Assembly (NCBI RefSeq): GCF_000711195.1
Contig: NZ_JOMR01000001.1
Coordinates: forward strand, 868,001 to 932,000
Reading direction: 5' to 3'
From: Thiomicrospira pelophila DSM 1534
GTDB lineage: Bacteria; Pseudomonadota; Gammaproteobacteria; Thiomicrospirales; Thiomicrospiraceae
DNA length: 64,000 nt
Part shown: piece after piece, positions 1,891 to 55,126 of the stretch
Position numbering within the stretch: the stretch's first letter is position 1
Layout of the letters: each line of letters begins with the position of its first letter
The notes under the pieces: model-generated
The model's database searches: none
What the model saw: only the letters and a program-made list of their open reading frames with translations
Told to the model about the DNA's origin: nothing
Program-made: the position numbers and the translations under genes

Positions 1891-3996
1891 GTGGATGAAG
1901 AAATTTTACAAGACTTTTTAGTCGAAGCCACTGAACTCTTAGACCAACTGAATGAGCAGTTGGTTGACCTAGAAAATTCACCGGATGATTCGGATCTTCT
2001 AAATGCCATTTTTAGAGGGTTTCATACGATTAAAGGTGGCGCAGGTTTCTTGGGCGTGGTCCCATTAATTGAAATTTGTCATCGTGCTGAAAATGTCTTC
2101 GATAAAATTCGTAATCACGAAGTGGCTTATGATGCCGACGCGGCGGATGTCATTCTCAGAGCTTTCGATAAAGTCAGTCAAATTATTGGTTTGTTAAACG
2201 ATGGCGAACGCGAAATCGAAGAGACCGAACCCGAGTTGTTAGATGAGTTGGATGCGATTTACAAACCCGCTTCTGCCCCCGCGGCTTCTGAAGAAGCAAC
2301 GGAAGAGATGCCTGCAGAATCGGCTGCGCCAGTTGACGTTGAGCTGAGTCTACCTGAGGGTGTGGACCCTGACGGTGATATGACGGATGAAGAGTTTGAT
2401 GCCTTGTTAGCGCAGCGCGCTCAAATAACCGCCGAAGTTTCTAACCCTGACGTACCAGCCGAGCCTAACTTAACTTTGCCAGAAGGTGTGGATCCCGATG
2501 GTGATATGACGGATGAAGAGTTTGATGCTTTATTAGCTCAGCGTGAGCAACTTACGGCCGAAACTTCGGTACCAGCGCAGTCAAAATCCGTTCAGCAAGC
2601 CGAACCCAGTTTAACCTTGCCAGAAGGGGTTGACCCTGATGGCGATATGACGGACGAAGAATTCGATGCGTTATTGGCGCAGCGTGAACAAATCGTTACA
2701 TCTTCCCCTAAATCTGAGGCTAAGCCGGTTCCTAAAAAACCAGCTGAAGCTCCTAAGCCGAAAGCCAAACCTGCCACGCCTGCTAAACCTGCCGAAGCTA
2801 AAAAAGCTGAGTCAGCTGAAAAGCCTAAGTCGTCGGGTGATTCAACAGTGCGAGTGGATACACGTCGTCTTGATGAGATTATGAATTTGGTAGGTGAGCT
2901 GGTATTGGTGCGTAACCGCTTGCTAACCCTGCGATCGGCGGACGCCAGTATCGAAGAAATTTCGAATGCTGTAGCCAACTTGGACCACGTCACCACCGAT
3001 CTACAGTCATCAGTAATGAAGACACGTATGCAGCCGGTAAAAAAAGTATTTGGGCGCTTTCCGCGCGTGGTGCGTGACTTGGCTCGTAAGCTAGGTAAGG
3101 ATATTGAGCTTGAGTTAAAAGGTGAAGAAACCGACCTAGATAAAAACTTGGTGGAAGCCTTGGCTGATCCGCTGGTTCATTTGGTTCGTAACTCGGTGGA
3201 TCATGGTATTGAGATGCCAGAAGAACGCCTTGCGTCCGGTAAGACTAAGGTCGGAAAAATTGTATTAGGCGCCGAGCAGGAAGGTGACCATATTCTATTG
3301 TCTATTACGGATGATGGCAAAGGTATGGATGCTGACTTACTTCGTCGCAAAGCGGTTGAAAAAGGCGTGATGGACGAGGCTGCGGCCAGACAGTTGGACG
3401 ATAAACAAGCCTTTATGTTGATTATGGCGGCGGGTTTTTCGACGGCCGAGAAGGTAAGTGATATTTCTGGACGTGGTGTAGGCATGGATGTGGTCAAAAG
3501 CATGATCACAAAGCTTAATGGCAGTATTGATATCGATTCAGCGATGGGAGAAGGTACTCAAATTCGGATTCGCGTACCCTTAACCTTGGCTATTTTACCG
3601 ACTTTAATGGTGTCGTTCGGTGAGGATAGCTATGCTATTCCATTAACCAGTGTGCAAGAAATTTTTGATTACAATTCTGATAAGACCAATAACATTGATG
3701 GCCAAAAAATGGTGCGTTTGCGTGAACAAAGTATTCCATTATTTTTCTTATCTGATTGGTTAGCTCCTGGGATAGAAAAAGAAAATTATCAGGGTGATAA
3801 AGTGGTGATTGTTGCAATTGGTAATCAGCGAGTTGGTCTGGTAGTTGAGCAGGTGAATGGTCAAGAGGAAGTGGTCATTAAACCTCTAGGTTTAATGCTT
3901 CATAAGGTCAGCGGCTATGCGGGAGCGACCATTACAGGCAATGGCAGTATTGCGCTCATTTTAGATCTACCAGGCCTGGTGGAACGTTTTCAATAA
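1891..3996 (+). CDS. cheA: Chemotaxis histidine kinase CheA with triple acidic linker repeat
   Basis: Receptor-coupled kinase that phosphorylates CheY. GTG start at 1891 behind TGAGGAA. Hpt domain with phospho-His H45 (GFHTIKGGAGFLG). Next comes a long linker (about residues 130-320) instead of a clear P2 domain. It holds three copies of LPEGVDPDGDMTDEEFDALL at about 153, 195 and 242, then a Pro/Lys/Ala stretch. The dimerisation helices follow (RLDEIMNLVGELVLVRNRLL), then the ATPase (LVRNSVDHGIEMPE, DDGKGMD, GRGVGMDVV) and a CheW-like C-terminal domain. Catalytically complete at 701 aa. cheW follows after 14 bp. A CCAGGCCTGG palindrome encodes PGL near the C-terminus. Confidence 0.95.
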   Translation: MDEEILQDFLVEATELLDQLNEQLVDLENSPDDSDLLNAIFRGFHTIKGGAGFLGVVPLIEICHRAENVFDKIRNHEVAYDADAADVILRAFDKVSQIIGLLNDGEREIEETEPELLDELDAIYKPASAPAASEEATEEMPAESAAPVDVELSLPEGVDPDGDMTDEEFDALLAQRAQITAEVSNPDVPAEPNLTLPEGVDPDGDMTDEEFDALLAQREQLTAETSVPAQSKSVQQAEPSLTLPEGVDPDGDMTDEEFDALLAQREQIVTSSPKSEAKPVPKKPAEAPKPKAKPATPAKPAEAKKAESAEKPKSSGDSTVRVDTRRLDEIMNLVGELVLVRNRLLTLRSADASIEEISNAVANLDHVTTDLQSSVMKTRMQPVKKVFGRFPRVVRDLARKLGKDIELELKGEETDLDKNLVEALADPLVHLVRNSVDHGIEMPEERLASGKTKVGKIVLGAEQEGDHILLSITDDGKGMDADLLRRKAVEKGVMDEAAARQLDDKQAFMLIMAAGFSTAEKVSDISGRGVGMDVVKSMITKLNGSIDIDSAMGEGTQIRIRVPLTLAILPTLMVSFGEDSYAIPLTSVQEIFDYNSDKTNNIDGQKMVRLREQSIPLFFLSDWLAPGIEKENYQGDKVVIVAIGNQRVGLVVEQVNGQEEVVIKPLGLMLHKVSGYAGATITGNGSIALILDLPGLVERFQ
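3969..3980. repeat. CAGGCCTG-palindrome copy, in cheA
   Basis: ACCAGGCCTGGT in phase CCA-GGC-CTG, giving PGLV eight residues before the CheA C-terminus. The outer flanks do not extend the symmetry to 18 bp. Confidence 0.9.
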
Positions 3997-7695: not shown

Positions 7696-9378
7696 ATGAA
7701 CAATGAGCGCAACCTCAGATACAACTCCCGCTTCTTTTTAGCGTTGATTTTAATGCTAACTAGTCAAGTGACTGTTGCAAAAGCGACCGAATTAAGCGGT
7801 ATTCGTTTGGGTCAAACCCCCGATCAGACACGTGTGGTGTTTGAAATTAGAAATAATCAGAGTTTTGATGTCATGCGCTTGAGTAATCCAGAACGTGTGG
7901 TGGTGGACTTCCATCATGCGCGTAATGCGGTATCTTTTAAAAACCAGCGATTCCAGGACCAGCGTGTGGCCTCTATGCGAATCTCTTCTAATGAAAAAAG
8001 AACTCGTGTGGTGTTGGATTTGCGTGATGCTTATCAATACAAGTATTTTACGCTGGGGAAAAATGGCGCTCGTCCTGAGCGATTAGTGATTGACTTAACG
8101 CAGCCTATGTTAGCAAAAACGGATTCTGCCACTCAGCTAGCTTCTACGCAAAAGCCAGAAAAGGAGCAGTCTAAGCCAAGCGTACAATCTGCGCCAGAAG
8201 AAGTTAAAAAAGTGGTTGCACGTAAACCAACGCCTAGTATTGTGGCGCGCACCAAACAGGCAACCAACGAACGTCTACAAGCCAACTCCGCTACCGAATC
8301 ATTGTTAAACAACAACCGTGACTTTGTGCAAACCAAACAATTTATAGTAGCGATTGACCCAGGTCATGGTGGGCACGATGTCGGCGCCATTGGTCCAGCC
8401 GGTACCTATGAAAAAGATGTGGTATTGGCTCAAGCGCGCGCTTTGCAGAAAGTAATTGATGCTCAACCTGGTATGAAAGCTATTTTAACGCGTGATAGTG
8501 ATGTGTATTTACAGTTACATGAGCGTGTGGATATTGCGAAGCAGAAAAATGCTGATATTTTCATTTCGGTGCATGCGGATGCCTATTCTTCGGCGGCGCC
8601 GAAGGGGGGCTCGGTGTACGTGTTATCCAATACCGGGGCCAGTAGTGTGATGGCGAGAACTTTGGCAAAACAAGAAAATGCAGCTTTAGGGGTTTTGCAG
8701 TTGGCGGGACGTGATAAAGATGTGGCGTTTGTGTTAAGTGATTTAACGCGTGAAGCCAATATTCGAGCAAGCCGAAAACTGGGTCAGTCGGTCTTGTCAG
8801 AAATGCAGCGCACGGTAAAAGTTCATAAGCATGCGATTCAATCGGCAGATTTTGCCGTTTTGAAATCAATCGATATGCCGTCAATGTTATTAGAAGTAGC
8901 GTTTATTTCGAACCCAATTGAAGAGAAAAAGCTGCAAGATCCGCGTTTTCATCAAACCTTTGCTCAAGCGGTAACGCGCGGCTTAAATAAGTTTATTGAT
9001 CAAACCGGTCATGCGCCACGTTGGGGTGAAACCCTATATGTTAATTATGAGGTTCAACGCGGTGATACTTTGTCTGATATTGCGCAGGCTTACGGCGTAG
9101 GTTCGCGTGATTTGATGAGTATCAACAATATCGGTAATGCCAACCAGCTTTATGTTGGTCGCAAGTTAAAAGTGCCGGTGACCGATAAATTAACCGTTCA
9201 ATATGATCTTAAATACACGGTAAAACGCGGGGATACCCTGTCGCAAATCGCACATGCTCATAAAGTGGATGTGAATGAATTGATGCGGGTGAATAAAATC
9301 AAAAATGCTAATCAACTCTACGTCGGCAAAGAGCTAACCGTACCGGTTAGAGAAAGTGTATTGGCCGCCGCTCATTAA
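7696..9378 (+). CDS. amiC: N-acetylmuramoyl-L-alanine amidase, AMIN and LysM type
   Basis: Periplasmic Zn amidase that splits septal peptidoglycan. Start ATG 7696 gives a signal peptide (FFLALILMLTSQVTVAKA); longer in-frame starts (TTG 7609, ATG 7654) exist but the ribosome site is weak for all. Then an AMIN domain (about 30-130), a linker, and an Amidase_3 domain with IDPGHGGHDVGAIG, ISVHADAYSS and LLEVAFISN zinc and catalytic elements. Two C-terminal LysM repeats follow (YEVQRGDTLSDIAQAYGV, YTVKRGDTLSQIAHAHKV). 560 aa. The two LysMs make it more like the AmiB/C of pseudomonads and vibrios than E. coli AmiC, so the exact symbol is tentative. Confidence 0.88.
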   Translation: MNNERNLRYNSRFFLALILMLTSQVTVAKATELSGIRLGQTPDQTRVVFEIRNNQSFDVMRLSNPERVVVDFHHARNAVSFKNQRFQDQRVASMRISSNEKRTRVVLDLRDAYQYKYFTLGKNGARPERLVIDLTQPMLAKTDSATQLASTQKPEKEQSKPSVQSAPEEVKKVVARKPTPSIVARTKQATNERLQANSATESLLNNNRDFVQTKQFIVAIDPGHGGHDVGAIGPAGTYEKDVVLAQARALQKVIDAQPGMKAILTRDSDVYLQLHERVDIAKQKNADIFISVHADAYSSAAPKGGSVYVLSNTGASSVMARTLAKQENAALGVLQLAGRDKDVAFVLSDLTREANIRASRKLGQSVLSEMQRTVKVHKHAIQSADFAVLKSIDMPSMLLEVAFISNPIEEKKLQDPRFHQTFAQAVTRGLNKFIDQTGHAPRWGETLYVNYEVQRGDTLSDIAQAYGVGSRDLMSINNIGNANQLYVGRKLKVPVTDKLTVQYDLKYTVKRGDTLSQIAHAHKVDVNELMRVNKIKNANQLYVGKELTVPVRESVLAAAH

Positions 9379-48899: not shown

Positions 48900-49541
48900 T
48901 TAATCAACATACTTGTCTTTGTCTTTAAACTCGCACAGATCAAAAATCACACAACTGCCGCAACGTGGTTTACGCGCCATGCAAGTGTAGCGACCATGCA
49001 AAATAAGCAAGTGATGGGCGTCCATTAAATGTTCTTTGGGTGTGAACTTGAGTAACTTCTGTTCAACTTCCAGCACGTTTTTACCGGGCGCGATTTTGGT
49101 GCGATTCGACACCCGAAAAATATGCGTATCCACCGCCATCGCAATTTGACCAAACGCGGTATTCAACACCACATTTGCGGTTTTGCGCCCCACGCCGGGC
49201 AGAGCTTCCAGCTCCTCACGCGTTTGCGGCACTTCACTGTTATGCAATTCAACTAACATCTTGCAGGCTTTAATCACGTTTTCCGCTTTAGAATTAAACA
49301 GCCCGATGGTTTTAATATAGTGTTTAAGCCCATCCACCCCCAACGCATAAATCGCCTCCGGCGTATTCGCCACCGGAAACAACTTCGCCGTCGCAATATT
49401 CACACCCTTATCCGTCGCCTGCGCCGACAAAATCACCGCAATCAGCAACTCAAACGGCGTCGAATAATTCAACTCCGTTTCCGGCTCCGGAATCGCTTCG
49501 GCTAAGCGGTCAAAAATCTGTTGGCGTTTGAGTTTATTCAT
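48900..49541 (-). CDS. nth: Endonuclease III Nth
   Basis: Base-excision DNA glycosylase/AP lyase for oxidised pyrimidines. Helix-hairpin-helix with the catalytic Lys (LPGVGRKTANVVLN), catalytic Asp in AMAVDTHIFRVSNR, and the C-terminal 4Fe-4S cluster CMARKPRCGSCVIFDLC. 213 aa. In many gammaproteobacteria nth directly follows rsxE; here an unrelated gene on the opposite strand lies between them. Confidence 0.97.
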   Translation of the reverse strand: MNKLKRQQIFDRLAEAIPEPETELNYSTPFELLIAVILSAQATDKGVNIATAKLFPVANTPEAIYALGVDGLKHYIKTIGLFNSKAENVIKACKMLVELHNSEVPQTREELEALPGVGRKTANVVLNTAFGQIAMAVDTHIFRVSNRTKIAPGKNVLEVEQKLLKFTPKEHLMDAHHLLILHGRYTCMARKPRCGSCVIFDLCEFKDKDKYVD

Positions 49542-49666
49542 TAGATGAGTCTTGAGGTCATGATTTAGGGTTAGTTATAAAACAGTCTTTGCTTGGTTTA
49601 TGTTACTTAGCTAGCAGCAAGGCCATACCACGCATAAACCGGCTGAAATAATAGCACAAACAAATG

Positions 49667-49684
49667 ACAACCAGGCCTGGTTGT
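49667..49684. repeat. CAGGCCTG-palindrome copy, intergenic, 18-bp perfect
   Basis: ACA-ACCAGGCCTGGT-TGT between nth and the orphan gene at 49770, close to the left boundary of the apparent insertion. Confidence 0.92.
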
Positions 49685-49769
49685 TTACTCTGGGATTTAA
49701 TACGCTGGTGTATAGCAAAGGATAGCGGGTTAAAGTAATATGCCAAAATGTTAACTCATTGACTGACAC

Positions 49770-50744
49770 ATGAGTGCTCATTTGAATGTGAAAAGCTACC
49801 AAAAGAAACAGGAAATGAATAGGAATACATACTCTATGGATAACTTTAAAAACACAATTATTCAGGAATGGTCTAAGTATGGATTTTCTGAATTTAAAGA
49901 AACTATATGGAGTTCGTCTTTACAACAAGCGGATTTGTCTAGAATTAGACGTTTTTTAAGCCAAAATCATATTAAGAATGTAGATGTTTCGATAGTAATT
50001 CCTCATAACAATGATACGCCCCGTATGAGGTGGACAAAATACTATGAGAGGTCAGGGCAATGTATATCGAAAATAAGGGAAGAGTTTATTCCTGAAAATA
50101 GTAATAATTTGAAACTAACTTTTTGTTACTGCAGCAAGGAGGAGGAGCAAAATAATGAAACTCAGTCAATTTACGTGGTGAATATACTTAGGCTTGTGTT
50201 TGGTGTTCCTGTTGCACGTGAACTTATTCTTATTAGACGTTTCTCTAATGATAGCAATGATCCTTCTTGTGAATCTGATAAAGATTTTGCATCAATGTTT
50301 GATACTCAATCATTGAATATGTTTAATGAACCTGCCATTGAAAAAGCTAAGATTATAGAAGTACCTGTGGAGTCAACGATTCTTCTCGATAAAGCATTTT
50401 CGCAAACTTATCCTGTTGAACGTTTTGTTCTAATGTGGCTGGCTTTTGAGGCTATAATCAGCGCCTTCCCCGGTGATGAAAGCAATGGCGATAAACGTAA
50501 AAAATTTTTTAGAGATGATTTAGGGTCTGATGCTATAAATAAGGAAGTTTATCGATTATTTAAGCTAAGGTGCGATCTTTTTAAAGAAGGAAAGGTTTCT
50601 GAATCTGCTATAGAAAAAGATTGCTGGTCTCTTTACGCCGTGATACAGCTTGCGATTATGAAAAACTGCGAACAGCGACAAGAATTGAAATCTGGATATG
50701 AAAAAGTTTTATCGTTAAATGCTTTAAATGTAGCGTTAAAGTGA
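49770..50744 (+). CDS. AT-rich orphan protein, possible degenerate HEPN-like C-terminus
   Basis: 324 aa at most. ATG 49770, 49815 and 49836 are all possible; only 49836 has AGGAA at normal spacing. The protein is hydrophilic, with no signal or membrane helix. The C-terminal third reads ERFVLMWLAFEAIIS, KKFFRDDLG, then RLFKLRCDLFKEGKV. That helical arrangement recalls Apea/HEPN-type domains, but the usual His of the R-x4-H motif is Lys, so the resemblance is weak. Base composition is clearly more AT-rich than its neighbours, and it breaks the rsxE-nth neighbourhood on the opposite strand. Probably horizontally acquired; function unknown. Confidence 0.75.
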   Translation: MSAHLNVKSYQKKQEMNRNTYSMDNFKNTIIQEWSKYGFSEFKETIWSSSLQQADLSRIRRFLSQNHIKNVDVSIVIPHNNDTPRMRWTKYYERSGQCISKIREEFIPENSNNLKLTFCYCSKEEEQNNETQSIYVVNILRLVFGVPVARELILIRRFSNDSNDPSCESDKDFASMFDTQSLNMFNEPAIEKAKIIEVPVESTILLDKAFSQTYPVERFVLMWLAFEAIISAFPGDESNGDKRKKFFRDDLGSDAINKEVYRLFKLRCDLFKEGKVSESAIEKDCWSLYAVIQLAIMKNCEQRQELKSGYEKVLSLNALNVALK

Positions 50745-50780
50745 AGTTTGCTTCCTAAATGAGTCTTACCCAAAACTATA

Positions 50781-51488
50781 TTAACTCGCACTTTGCACTT
50801 CAACCGGAATATTCACCAGGCCTGGTTTTTTGAGTTTTTGGTCGGCGTAATTTTTCAGCGCGATCAATAAGCCTAAGCCAATAAACGCACCTGGCGGTAA
50901 AATCGCGAGCAACACAGGGGTATAATCGCTACTTAAATGCAATGTCCAGTTGCGGGCGGTTTCGCCGAATAGCAACCAGGCCTGGTCGAATAGCGTGCCG
51001 TTGCCAATCAGCTCTCGCAGACTGCCCAAAATGACCAGTACAATCGTAAACCCAATCCCAATAAACAAAGCATCGACAATCGACTTATCCAACGAGTTTT
51101 TGGAGGCAAAGGATTCAGCGCGCGCTAAGATCGCGCAGTTGGTGACGATCAATGGAATAAAGATGCCCAAAATGCCGTGTAAGGTATAAAAGTAGGCGTG
51201 CATGAGCATGTCGATAATGGTGACCGCCGCTGCAATAATGGCAATAAAGACCGGGATGCGAATTTCAGACGGTACCCAGTGACGAATCAGCGAAACCAAA
51301 ATGTTCGAGGTCAGCAAAACGGCCATGGTCGCTAAACCTAAGCCTAAGCCATTCACACTGTTATTTGTCACCGCGAGTAATGGGCATAAGCCGAGTAGGG
51401 CGACCAAGGCCTGGTTGTTGTTCCAAAGACCTTTTTGCGCAATCTCTTGGTAGTCGCGCCAAGTTTGGTTAAAGGATGCTTTAGTCAT
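50781..51488 (-). CDS. rsxE: Electron transport complex subunit RsxE
   Basis: Membrane subunit of the Rsx/Rnf complex. Start ATG 51488 with GAGGAA upstream, inside the last codons of rsxG (8-bp overlap). Six hydrophobic helices with [37 protein letters not shown] and [17 protein letters not shown]. 235 aa. Two palindrome copies: one at the C-terminus (KKPGLVNI), one in a loop (DQAWLLFG). Confidence 0.94.
50815..50826. repeat. CAGGCCTG-palindrome copy 1 in rsxE
   Basis: ACCAGGCCTGGT near the rsxE 3' end, encoding KPGLV; close to the right boundary of the orphan-gene insertion. Confidence 0.9.
50975..50986. repeat. CAGGCCTG-palindrome copy 2 in rsxE
   Basis: ACCAGGCCTGGT encoding DQAWLL; 160 bp from copy 1. 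A near copy (one extra A) lies around 51409. Confidence 0.9.
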
Positions 51489-52101
51489 ACAGTTCCTCTT
51501 GGTGTCGATTGACATAGTCGAGTGTTAATTTGACCGCGCCCACGACTGCGCGTGGAGTGATGGTTGCGCCGGTAAATTGATCAAATTCGCCTCGGTCTCG
51601 TTTGACCGCCCAGCGATTCACATTGTCTTCAGTCAGTTCCTTGCCATTAAAACTTAAAATCCAATCGTCTTTGCGCAGTTCTATTTTATCGCCTAAGCCC
51701 GGCGTTTCTCGGTGGCTTACAACCCGGACACCGGCCACACGGCCATCTGCAAATACGCCGACAATAAGACGGATATTGCCGTTATAGCCATTGGGGGCGA
51801 CGGTTTCAACCACCAGGCCTGCTGGTTCACCATTTAGGCGCGCGCGATAAATCGTCATGGGTTCGGTTGAGCCCAGGTAGTCGGGTTCGGTCACGGTCTT
51901 GGTGTCTTCTAATAGATTGTTATCATACCGAGACGCCGGCATGACCTGATTAAGCAGTTGAATTAAAGAGGCTTGTTCGGCTTGTTCTATTTTAGGTTGA
52001 GTAAATGCATTGATAGCGATTAATAAGGCGACGCTAATCACCACAAATAGGCTAAGTAAGCCTGCGGCACGAAACATGGCTAGTTTAAGTTCTGGTTTCA
52101 T
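51481..52101 (-). CDS. rsxG: Electron transport complex subunit RsxG (FMN protein)
   Basis: 206 aa with one N-terminal membrane helix ([19 protein letters not shown]) and a periplasmic FMN-binding domain. The Thr that links FMN covalently is in [12 protein letters not shown]. Other conserved patterns: [16 protein letters not shown]. Overlaps rsxD by 4 bp. An incomplete palindrome (ACCAGGCCTGCT) lies near 51812. Confidence 0.95.
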
Positions 52102-53129
52102 CGAATATGCCCTACCACGCGAGGTTGAGTGTAGCGATCAATCATCGGCACGGCGATGTTCATTAATAAAATCGCAAACGCAATACCGTCGGGGAACGCA
52201 CCCCAGTTACGAATAACATACACCAAAATACCAATGCCTGCGGCATAAATTAAGCGCCCCATTGGGGTGGTGCTGGAGCTGACCGGATCGGTGATGATAA
52301 AGAACGCCGCCAACATGGTGCCACCAAATAAAAGGTGAAAGCTGATCGGTGCGTAAAGTGCGGGATTAATCATATGGAATAGCCAAGCCATGAAGGCTAA
52401 GGTGCCCAAAAACCCGACCGGAAATTGCCAGCGAATGGTGCGCGTGTAGAGTAACCATAAGCCGCCGATTAAAAAGGCGACATTAATCCAACCCCAAGCG
52501 GTGAGGTTTAACCAGCTGGATTCAAAGTAGGCCGCTTGTAGCATGTCTTGGCTGGACAGACCTTGCTGCAAACCAGTTTGTAAGGTACTGAGTGGGGTCG
52601 CGCCAGTAAAGCTGTCGATGGGCATATTGGGCATCACGCCAAACAGGATATGATTGAAGGAGTCCCAAAAGCTTAAGGTGTAACCCGCTAAATCTTTGGG
52701 CAAGGTCCATTGTGTCATTTCGGCTGGAAAGGAGATGAGCAAAAAGGCATAACCTAACATGGCCGGATTAAAAGGGTTGTAACCTAAACCACCGTATAAA
52801 TGTTTGCCGAAAACCAGTGCAAATGTGCAGCCGGTCACAATCACCCACCAAGGCGATTCGGGTGGAATACAGAACACCAGGCCTGTTACGGTAATGAGTG
52901 CGCTGAAATCAGTCATATTGGGCATAACCGGGCGGTCGCGCAGCTTGAGCATCACAAACTCGACCAATAGGGCAGTCGCTACCGCCAAAAACCATTGAAT
53001 AACGATGCCATAGCCAAACAGCAAAATATGCGCTAGCAACGCCGGAAAAGCGGCCAGCTGAACCTGTAACATGATTTTTTGCACCGAGCTGTTGTTGTGT
53101 GCAAATGGGGAACTGCTAAAGGTCGACAT
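52098..53129 (-). CDS. rsxD: Electron transport complex subunit RsxD (FMN protein)
   Basis: 343-aa integral membrane subunit. Covalent FMN Thr in SFTGATPLSTLQ; GLGYNPFNPAMLGYAFLLIS and SSTTPMGRLIYAAGIGILVYV are typical. ATG overlaps the rsxC stop by one base. A partial palindrome copy lies near 52875. Confidence 0.95.
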   Translation of the reverse strand: MSTFSSSPFAHNNSSVQKIMLQVQLAAFPALLAHILLFGYGIVIQWFLAVATALLVEFVMLKLRDRPVMPNMTDFSALITVTGLVFCIPPESPWWVIVTGCTFALVFGKHLYGGLGYNPFNPAMLGYAFLLISFPAEMTQWTLPKDLAGYTLSFWDSFNHILFGVMPNMPIDSFTGATPLSTLQTGLQQGLSSQDMLQAAYFESSWLNLTAWGWINVAFLIGGLWLLYTRTIRWQFPVGFLGTLAFMAWLFHMINPALYAPISFHLLFGGTMLAAFFIITDPVSSSTTPMGRLIYAAGIGILVYVIRNWGAFPDGIAFAILLMNIAVPMIDRYTQPRVVGHIR

Positions 53130-55126
53130 TATTGGCTTGTCTCCTGTTGGGCTTTACGCGCGGCGGCTTTTGCTTTGGCGGCTTCCATCGCGGCCTTGCG
53201 TTTGTCTGCCGCCGACATTTCTGACTTAGGGGATTCTGTGCCAGAGTCTTTGGTGTTGTTCGGTTCTTTTGGACTCGTCTTTTTAGCGGCGGCGCGGGCT
53301 TTAGCCGCTTCCATTGCGGCTTTGCGTTTGTCTTCCGCCGACATTTCTGGCTTAGGGGAGTTTGTGTCAGAGTCTTTGGTGTTGTTCGGTTCTTTTGGGC
53401 TCGTCTTTTTAGCGGCGGCGCGGGCTTTAGCCGCTTCCATCGCGGCTTTGCGTTTGTCTTCCGCCGACATTTCTGACTTAGAGGATTCTGTACTAGAATT
53501 TTTCGTGCTCTTCGAGTCTTCTGGGCTCGTCTTTTTAGCGGCGGTTTGGCGAGCTTTGGCCGCTTGAATGGCTTTTTCGCGCGCGCTCAATTTGGGCGCA
53601 TCGGCGGCTGGTTTTTCAGTTTTTGGGGCTTCATCGGCTTGTTTTTTTACCGCCGCTTTTTTGGCGGCAAGCTTGGCTTCGCGCTCTTTTTTGTCACGTT
53701 CTAAACGTGCTTCACGGGCATCAAATCGTTGTTTTGCAATTTCGGTTAATTTCGCTTGCTGCTTGATTTCTCTCACTTCAGCTTTGGCGTGACGATAATA
53801 TTGCACCAGCGGAATATGACTGGGGCAAACAAATGAGCAGCAACCGCATTCAATGCAGTCGAATAGGTTGAGCTGTTCGGTTTTATCGTATTCATGCGCA
53901 CGTGCATGCCAGTAAAGTTGTTGGGGTAGTAAGTTCACCGGACAGGCTTCGGCACATTCGCCACAACGAATACAGGCCATGGGTTCATCCGAAGTTTCGG
54001 GAGGGTTCGCTAGAATGCAGTTGGTGGTTTTGATCACAGGTACATCATTGTGCGCCACCGCAAAGCCCATCATTGGTCCACCCATTAAGAGCGGGTAATC
54101 TAGTTTCGGTTCGGGTTGGGCGAGTTCAACGAGTTCATTAAATGGCGTGCCAAGCAGAGCGTCGATATTAAACGGTTGTTTTAAACCCATGCCAGAGACG
54201 GTGACAAAGCGTGAAACTAACGGTTGACCGAGTTCGAGCGCTTGAGTAATCGCACGTAAGGTGGCGACGTTCATCATAACGACACCAATATCAATACTAT
54301 GAAGTTGGCTGGGAATTTCTAGCCCGACGAGTTCTTGGGTCAGTTGTTTTTGTCCACCCATCGGGTAAACCGTGGCGACTTCTTCCACTCGAATTCGAGT
54401 AGCTTCACTGGCTTGACGCATGGCCGAAATCGCTTGGGGTTTGTTGGTTTCAATGCCACAAATGACGTTTTCAACCTCAAATAGATCGGCCATAAATAGC
54501 GCGGCTCGTACGATTTCTGGCGCGTGCGTTTGCATTAACAAGTCATCACAGGTAATAAAAGGTTCGCACTCGGCACCATTGATAATTAAATGTTTAATTT
54601 TACCGGGTTGATCGGGAAGTTTGGCAAAGGTCGGAAAGCCCGCGCCGCCCATGCCGACAATACCGGCATTAAGCAGAAGTTGTTTAAACTCGGCAATATT
54701 TTTAGGTTTTTCAACGATGCCTAGCGCATTTTCTACAGCGTCTTGTTTCGCGTCTGGTTCAATCACAATACAGGGTTCGGCTAAACCGGAGGCATGCGGC
54801 AAAATGCGCTGTTCAATCGCGATAATTTTACCGGAAGCGGGGGCGTGAACCGGTGCACTCAAACCTTTGGCGGCTTGTGCAATCATTTGGAACTTTTTGA
54901 CCTGTTCACCGATCTCAACGCAGGGTAACGCGGCGCCGCCCATATGCTGTTGCAGAGGCAAAATGAGTTGTTTGGGCACATAGCCGCTTCGCAATGGTTG
55001 GCGTAAGGATAGGCTTTTGTTGTATTTAGGAAAGACACCGCCGTGAAAGTGATACAGCCAGCGTTTCGCCATAGGGTAAATCGGCGCAATTAAGTTTATG
55101 ATTTTTTGGCGTAAGCTCGGTTTCAT
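53129..55126 (-). CDS. rsxC: Electron transport complex subunit RsxC with C-terminal 42-residue repeats
   Basis: 665 aa. N-terminal RnfC barrel ([12 protein letters not shown]), a flavin/NAD-binding Complex I 51-kDa-like core ([43 protein letters not shown]), and two 4Fe-4S motifs ([29 protein letters not shown]). The tail (about 490-665) is Ala/Lys-rich and holds three near-identical 42-residue repeats ([20 protein letters not shown]...). Such tails vary in length across RsxC proteins. Overlaps rsxB by 4 bp. Confidence 0.95.
53160..53545. repeat. 126-bp tandem repeat in the rsxC 3' end
   Basis: Three direct copies with a 126-bp period (equivalent positions 53181, 53307, 53433) encoding the 42-residue Ala/Lys units. 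Copies two and three are almost identical, which implies recent duplication or gene conversion. Confidence 0.88.

Follow-up and report, generated by a model that had tools for sequence, protein, structure and literature searches.

HEPN domains are the effectors of many toxin-antitoxin (TA) and abortive-infection (Abi) systems, and the families share little sequence apart from their motifs (PMC3710099, in the part of its text available). The same part of that paper places an R-x4-6-H motif in the C-terminal portion of helix 3 and an acidic residue, often within E-x3-[KR], in helix 2. It also describes AbiV/AF0298-type proteins in which the motif histidine is missing and the segment inserted between helices 2 and 3 holds an alternative histidine. 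For some of the HEPN domains that lack the motif it proposes RNA binding, and it notes that proteins without the motif can still be toxic. Tha is a single protein of 301 amino acids with a C-terminal HEPN domain (residues 184 to 296) that acts as a phage-triggered RNase, the trigger being, directly or indirectly, phage tail proteins (PMC11087260, in the excerpts available).

The gene presented here lies in a window of 64,000 nucleotides (the whole stretch of DNA analyzed; bases 868,001 to 932,000 of the contig) from Thiomicrospira pelophila DSM 1534. It forms an islet that is real, derived, and laterally acquired, and its product has a HEPN effector domain by prediction. The islet is of an ordinary kind, while the family is new within the libraries searched and has an unusual motif. 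With about even confidence, we read it as a laterally acquired single-gene islet in the normally closed rsxE-nth junction, encoding a self-contained sensor-plus-HEPN effector of the abortive-infection type. Tha is the closest analogue in presumed action and is not a relative by profile comparison.

An AT-rich gene between nth and rsxE

The first-pass annotation had singled out positions 49542 to 50780, essentially the whole space between nth and rsxE, as holding an AT-richer gene on the opposite strand with no clear family. The ORF list contains a frame of 324 codons there (324 amino acids, positions 49770 to 50744, + strand). Since the alignment with three relatives begins at the ATG at 49836, the protein is likely 302 amino acids long; the frame is intact. 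The features are as follows.

48900 to 49541, - strand: nth, conserved left neighbor
49542 to 49553, + strand: left direct repeat copy TAGATGAGTCTT, right after nth, with the exact core ATGAGTCTT at 49545 to 49553
49554 to 50758, strand not assigned: putative inserted segment between the repeats
49770, + strand: alternative upstream ATG of the orphan gene, adding 22 amino acids
49836 to 50744, + strand: orphan gene, 302 amino acids, two domains with a predicted C-terminal HEPN fold (from the ORF and the alignment of relatives)
49887 to 50228, + strand: N-terminal alpha/beta domain, residues about 18 to 131 (model of modest confidence)
50328 to 50741, + strand: C-terminal domain, residues 165 to 302, predicted HEPN fold (pLDDT 87)
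50448 to 50462, + strand: E205-x3-S209 at the end of helix 2 (alignment and model)
50568 to 50585, + strand: R245-x4-K250, closing the long helix (alignment, model, and the available part of PMC3710099)
50756 to 50767, + strand: right direct repeat copy TAAATGAGTCTT, just before the end of rsxE, with the exact core at 50759 to 50767
50781 to 51515, - strand: rsxE, conserved right neighbor

Within a set of 50 window ORFs (≥150 amino acids, chosen mechanically), the orphan gene was the most AT-rich, with a GC content of 0.343 (mean, 0.458; standard deviation, 0.031), and its GC3 was low too (0.289 versus a mean of 0.451). Pfam, PADLOC, and NCBIfam gave no family for the window protein at E values up to 10, and these observations bear out the initial description of the gene. 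Rfam yielded no match over positions 49000 to 51500.

The gene occurred once in its own genome (one contig of 2,108,215 bases) and, among 62 searched genomes of the order, only there. It was absent from all 61 others, so it is not a gene found throughout the family with normal composition; this order-wide absence and the lowest GC content rule out an ordinary family gene. A profile built from four sequences had a single match among 369 genomes of the class and a single match among 398 of the phylum, each time in the source genome itself (the two sets overlap). Scanning one genome per species across 84,980 species with peptide patterns gave 18 pattern matches, of which 3 were relatives: proteins from Methylotenera oryzisoli (L002), a Methylotenera metagenome-assembled genome (MAG; L003), and a Parvibaculum MAG (L004), whose respective identities to the window protein in the alignment were 56%, 58%, and 50%. 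Profile searches of 187 Methylotenera family genomes (2 positive) and 40 Parvibaculum order genomes (1 positive) returned only copies already found. The four family members are a lower bound, because pattern scans miss distant relatives. Phages, plasmids, and viral contigs gave no match to the protein, and a phage, plasmid, or prophage origin was set aside on this ground; the viral scans used short exact peptide patterns, which may miss distant relatives. PHROGs returned only three weak partial matches (best E value, 0.045), which were not used.

Predicted fold and active-site motif

Modeled at full length, the protein had a mean pLDDT of 68, with values below 50 at residues 1 to 21 and 129 to 162 and of about 50 to 80 at residues 21 to 130. 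The N-terminal part (residues about 18 to 131) matched small alpha/beta domains of many unrelated proteins (top Z, 8.0), which we take to be ferredoxin-like, and no sensor domain was identified in it. The C-terminal 138 residues modeled alone reached a pLDDT of 87 and formed helices at residues 178 to 188, 193 to 209, 217 to 228 (insert helix), 232 to 251, 256 to 274, and 279 to 301. The predicted domain has the HEPN topology, in which the four core helices pair into two hairpins and an insert separates helix 2 from helix 3; the last, extra helix (279 to 301) falls outside most alignments to HEPN structures.

Structure alignment of the C-terminal model placed HEPN structures, identified by title, by paper, or as known members of the superfamily, at 25 of ranks 1 to 26. 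Rank 1 was 3mfn, of unknown function, and the first clearly unrelated chain stood at rank 27 (Z, 5.3). The matches included 2hsb (Z of 8.2 over 104 residues), 2q00 (7.9), 7bxo (7.7), and sacsin (7.3); Z values below about 13 can mean little in helical bundles, and the argument is that one superfamily fills the list. HEPN rows for the same C-terminal part also appeared when the full-length model was aligned (2hsb, 7.2; 2q00, 6.9; 7ae8, 5.8; 3brj, 5.1). Assignment to HEPN was by title for 2hsb, 8xdj, 8xeh, 8yuf, 3o10, 7ae2, 7ae6, 7ae8, and 7ae9, and 1wty, 5yep, 7bxo, 6m6u, 6m6w, 6of2, 6of3, and 9oij were counted as known HEPN structures. The available part of PMC3710099 supplied 1wwp, 2q00 (2jpu being the same target), 1ylm, 3c8g, and 3brj, as well as the MtlR and Csm6 families, which cover 6kcr and 6tug. 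A HEPN fold of the C-terminal domain is thus supported by the predicted model, and the faint HEPN-like look that had been remarked on in the C terminus holds as a predicted fold.

That the C-terminal bundle belongs to an unrelated helical protein and only resembles HEPN is very improbable. Foldseek would speak for such a protein: the full-length model gave no match at an E value of ≤0.001 in the PDB or viral structures, and the C-terminal model gave no significant one (best E value, 0.52), with 2q00 and a HEPN toxin at ranks 1 and 2 and an unrelated chain at rank 3. So would the sequence searches, since at E values up to 10 neither the family libraries (Pfam, NCBIfam, and PADLOC) nor the sequences of the PDB gave a match, to HEPN or to anything else, for any of the four members, except that one of them matched TIGR02866 (CoxB; E value, 0.16), which was taken as chance. 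Against an unrelated bundle stand the several HEPN families that fill 25 of the top 26 ranks and the R-x4-K sequence at the helix end where HEPN domains carry their motif (by the model and the available part of PMC3710099).

R245 and K250 were invariant in the alignment of all four members. R245-x4-K250 ends the modeled helix at residues 232 to 251, where HEPN RNases carry R-x4-H, and E205, likewise invariant in the four, lies in the modeled helix at residues 193 to 209 and provides the acidic helix 2 residue of HEPN domains. The peptide RCDLFKEG, which the first-pass annotation had offered as a HEPN sign, does stand at the place of R-x4-H; the catalytic histidine it would need is a lysine in all four proteins. 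The canonical R-x4-6-H motif is therefore absent, and RNase activity is not to be assumed. Because the helix positions fit, K250 is present in all four, and the alignment holds no invariant histidine anywhere in the family, the claim of a HEPN fold stands and that of a canonical RNase fails. At position 209, the three relatives have histidine and the window copy has serine. Catalysis by this alternative histidine is possible in the relatives, judging from the aligned residues, and less likely in the window copy, which may be catalytically weakened or purely RNA-binding.

These residues also admit a bolder version, which we consider unlikely: a family of HEPN effectors whose active site has been rearranged. 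The catalytic histidine would have moved from R-x4-H (now R-x4-K) to the end of helix 2, giving E-x3-H in the three relatives, whereas E-x3-[KR] is found there in many HEPN families (PMC3710099, in the part available). The basic residue and the histidine would then have been swapped between the motifs of a self-contained single-gene defense protein carried as a lone islet, and the window copy, with S209, would be naturally disarmed.

Among the closest known systems are AF0298 and AbiV, which typify the HEPN-T family. The AF0298 match (2hsb) had 20% identity over its 104 residues, and AbiV (9bj7) had a Z of 5.0. In all four proteins here, as in AF0298 and AbiV according to the available part of PMC3710099, the arginine of R-x4-6-H is kept and the histidine is lost. 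The described proteins have a strongly conserved histidine in the insert, whereas here a histidine stands at the end of helix 2 and in only three of the four members; a lysine in the motif, an extra N-terminal domain, and the lack of a sequence match further distinguish the family from them. The likeness to Tha lies in a single protein of nearly the same size (301 versus 302 amino acids; PMC11087260, in the excerpts available) with a C-terminal HEPN domain and extends to a short stretch of sequence (RNSIMH in Tha versus RNSIFK in the Parvibaculum relative), but the canonical histidine is present in Tha and absent here. Homology to Tha was rejected, with hhalign probabilities of 0.1 and 0.2 percent (E values, 0.41 and 0.28) and alignments that lay off the motif. 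HepT of HepT-MntA matched in fold (7bxo, Z of 7.7; 8xeh, 7.4) and differs in having R-x4-H rather than R-x4-K, and no MNT gene was seen by reading beside any of the four copies (at nth/rsxE, FKBP/groL, glmM, and glnA; the downstream side of L003 is cut). ApeA (HEPN_Apea, PF18739) had no profile match in the four proteins; a genome search with PF18739 found it in 0 of 143 genomes and also in 0 of 14 controls and was uninformative.

The last of these comparisons, with MtlR, bears on the main rival explanation, that of a noncatalytic HEPN protein that resembles MtlR or sacsin and works as a regulator by binding RNA or a ligand, rather than as a defense effector. MtlR is a HEPN family in part of which the motif is lost, and it was matched at Z values of 5.8 (3brj) and 5.6 (6kcr); both it and sacsin are among the fold matches. 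R-x4-K in all four members, the lack of an invariant histidine, and the proposal that motif-less HEPN domains bind RNA (PMC3710099, in the part available) would all suit a regulator. The family differs from MtlR in its extra N-terminal domain and in having no mannitol genes nearby (by reading). The lone, patchy, laterally moved copies beside unrelated genes are unlike a regulator of a neighboring operon, and motif-less HEPN proteins can be toxic (according to the same part of PMC3710099). We regard a regulator as rather unlikely, though more probable than a rearranged active site.

The rsxE-nth junction and the proposed mode of action

Of the 60 family genomes, 58 yielded a match to rsxE and 58 a match to nth. 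The junction was measurable in 54 of the 58 rsxE genomes, where both genes lie on one contig and strand; the other four were set aside (different contigs in G055 and G035, no nth at the cutoff in G034, and opposite strands in G003). Gaps were estimated as if rsxE ended as it does in the window. By this estimate the junction was closed (≤136 bp) in 44 of 54 genomes, as had been expected from the conserved gene order, and was at least 325 bp in 10. The insertion is derived, since the junction is closed in 44 of the 54. A literature search on insertions or TA genes at rsxE-nth found nothing on the site among the papers listed, which is not proof that it is undescribed.

Four of the nine genomes of the genus, the source genome included, carry inserted genes at a resolved junction, and the three others among these four (G057, G058, and G060) carry TA genes. 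G058, the closest relative by rsxE (96%), and G060 have a FitA-like RHH gene and a PIN gene. G057 has a FitA-like/PIN pair, an Unstab_antitox protein, a RelE/HTH pair, two genes without a Pfam match, and a truncated second 3' end of rsxE. The junction is closed in G053, G054, and G056 and has a gap of 325 bp with no ORF of ≥60 amino acids wholly inside in G059. In G055, rsxE is followed by a Gp49/HI1420-like pair and a gene of 176 amino acids (transposase-like by reading; no Pfam match at an E value of 0.01); nth lies on another contig, and this genome was kept out of the resolved junctions. Cargo outside the genus is not TA-like and comprises BNR-repeat genes in G043 (by Pfam) and, by reading, in G052 and G031. 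G051 has a BOF protein at the junction, and G049 has no ORF of >63 amino acids there. rsxE-nth is a small junction at which close relatives carry different TA or accessory genes, few at once, and no large island.

Some further arrangements were seen in the same region. The truncated rsxE copy of G057 (L053, positions 2853 to 3110) lies beside RelE/HTH, as if an insertion had duplicated the end of rsxE. G059 has a BrnT/BrnA TA pair between rsxD and rsxG (L013, positions 357 to 870; by Pfam), and at the same place G055 has a lone antitoxin-like gene that by reading is nearly identical to the G059 BrnA (L015, positions 2806 to 3078).

The four family copies, from three genera, each stand alone beside unrelated housekeeping genes. 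The M. oryzisoli copy lies between genes read as FKBP and groL, and the L003 and L004 copies follow genes read as glmM and glnA, respectively; on the downstream side of the L003 copy, the locus ends inside the next gene. Reading of all ORFs of ≥30 amino acids around the four copies revealed no shared small partner ORF.

The groL-FKBP junction is itself variable in Methylotenera. A close match to FKBP was present in 12 further genomes; seven of these were looked at, and six of the seven (all except L032) were interpreted. The two genes are adjacent, the junction being closed, in L031, L033, and L037. In L029, L030, and L034, other genes lie beside FKBP, and groL was not within the 1.5 kb fetched; these are unknown genes or, by reading, a transposase-like and an ATP-binding-like gene. 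The four genes of L029 and L030 gave nothing above the Pfam cutoff and nothing in PADLOC.

The cargo raises the question of a solitary toxin, left from a TA pair whose antitoxin was lost, with the window copy decaying. TA pairs at the same junction in relatives, the lone G055 gene resembling the G059 BrnA (a sign that TA remnants persist in the rsx operon), and the position of the window copy as the only one of four without H209 would agree with this history. It would also presuppose four independent losses, which seems implausible, as no convincing partner ORF stands by any of the four copies from three genera (by reading, with L003 cut downstream), and the frame is intact. We rate a decaying solitary toxin as decidedly improbable, above an unrelated bundle and below both a regulator and a rearranged active site.

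For the islet as a self-contained effector, a defense role is suggested by the fold, the isolation of the copies, and what relatives carry at this junction. A lone spreading gene without an antitoxin needs a built-in switch or must be nontoxic. The gene would have entered rsxE-nth, a repeated landing site in the genus for TA and other accessory genes. Its N-terminal alpha/beta domain would probably sense a trigger, and its C-terminal HEPN domain would act on RNA. With no partner antitoxin, the protein would probably be kept inactive by its N-terminal portion before the trigger appears, presumably an invader such as an infecting phage, after which cutting or binding of RNA would stop translation, following the logic of abortive infection. 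Several results count against such an effector: the catalytic histidine is absent in four of four members and the H209 of the relatives is missing from the window copy, the best Foldseek E value is 0.52 and Z values near 8 are within chance for helical bundles, profile comparison shows no homology to Tha, the N-terminal model is modest with no sensor domain identified, no phage, plasmid, or viral contig matched, and the cargo in other genera (BNR-repeat and BOF proteins) is not defense-like. If the reading is right, the single-gene effectors would gain a very rare HEPN family that the searched copies of Pfam, NCBIfam, and PADLOC do not contain, and with it one could test directly whether HEPN domains work without the canonical histidine.

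Direct repeats and palindromes

The copies TAGATGAGTCTT and TAAATGAGTCTT lie 1,214 bp apart and share an exact core of 9 bp. An exact 9-mer between the outer flanks arose in 4 of 5,000 shuffles with flanks of 30 bp, in 21 with 40 bp, and in 93 with 60 bp. At the closed G053 site, the spacer of 15 bp resembles the joined flanks (TAGA-GTGTCTT versus TAGATGAGTCTT; 94 of 5,000 shuffles as good). The corresponding counts were 166 of 5,000 for the left copy alone and 835 of 5,000 for the right flank alone. The flanking repeat suggests an insertion with a short target duplication. It is suggestive and not proof, because the five direct-repeat families shown out of 8 in the 1.26-kb region include four others that are internal, with 11 to 18 bases, and because the significance drops with longer flanks. 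At the window copy, we saw neither a transposase gene nor a terminal inverted repeat.

Palindrome copies had also been pointed out near both sides of the gene. Copies of CCAGGCCTGG do lie near both (at 49671 and 50816), and a role in insertion does not follow, as the copy at 50816 is inside rsxE and independent of the insertion: it is also present in the closest relative, which does not have the gene. The window holds 30 copies (another is at 50976) versus 0.04 expected from shuffles, and 23 of the 30 lie inside ORFs of ≥150 amino acids, which cover 86% of the window. These window-wide copies and the rsxE copy in the gene-less relative rule out the palindromes as insertion ends, although only 2.8% of random intervals of the same length have CCAGGCCTGG within 150 bp of both ends. 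The 9-bp direct repeat is the better insertion mark. CCAGGCCTGG is reminiscent of genome-wide palindromes of the HIP1 kind. Promoter and terminator scans were not above chance, and the sole terminator-like site was the palindrome.

Other repeats were seen at the relatives' copies and in the window. The Parvibaculum copy is bracketed by an exact 10-base direct repeat, CATCCCTTTC (L004, positions 7920 to 7929 and 8928 to 8937), for which the estimated chance expectation for both flanks is about 0.01. None of the five repeat families shown for L002 and L003 (8 and 6 in all, respectively) brackets the gene. An exact 12-bp direct repeat, ATGATTTAGGGT, occurs in the window at 49560 to 49571, upstream of the gene, and at 50515 to 50526, inside it, probably by chance. 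The C terminus of RsxC (53129 to 55126, - strand) contains near-identical Ala/Lys-rich repeats.
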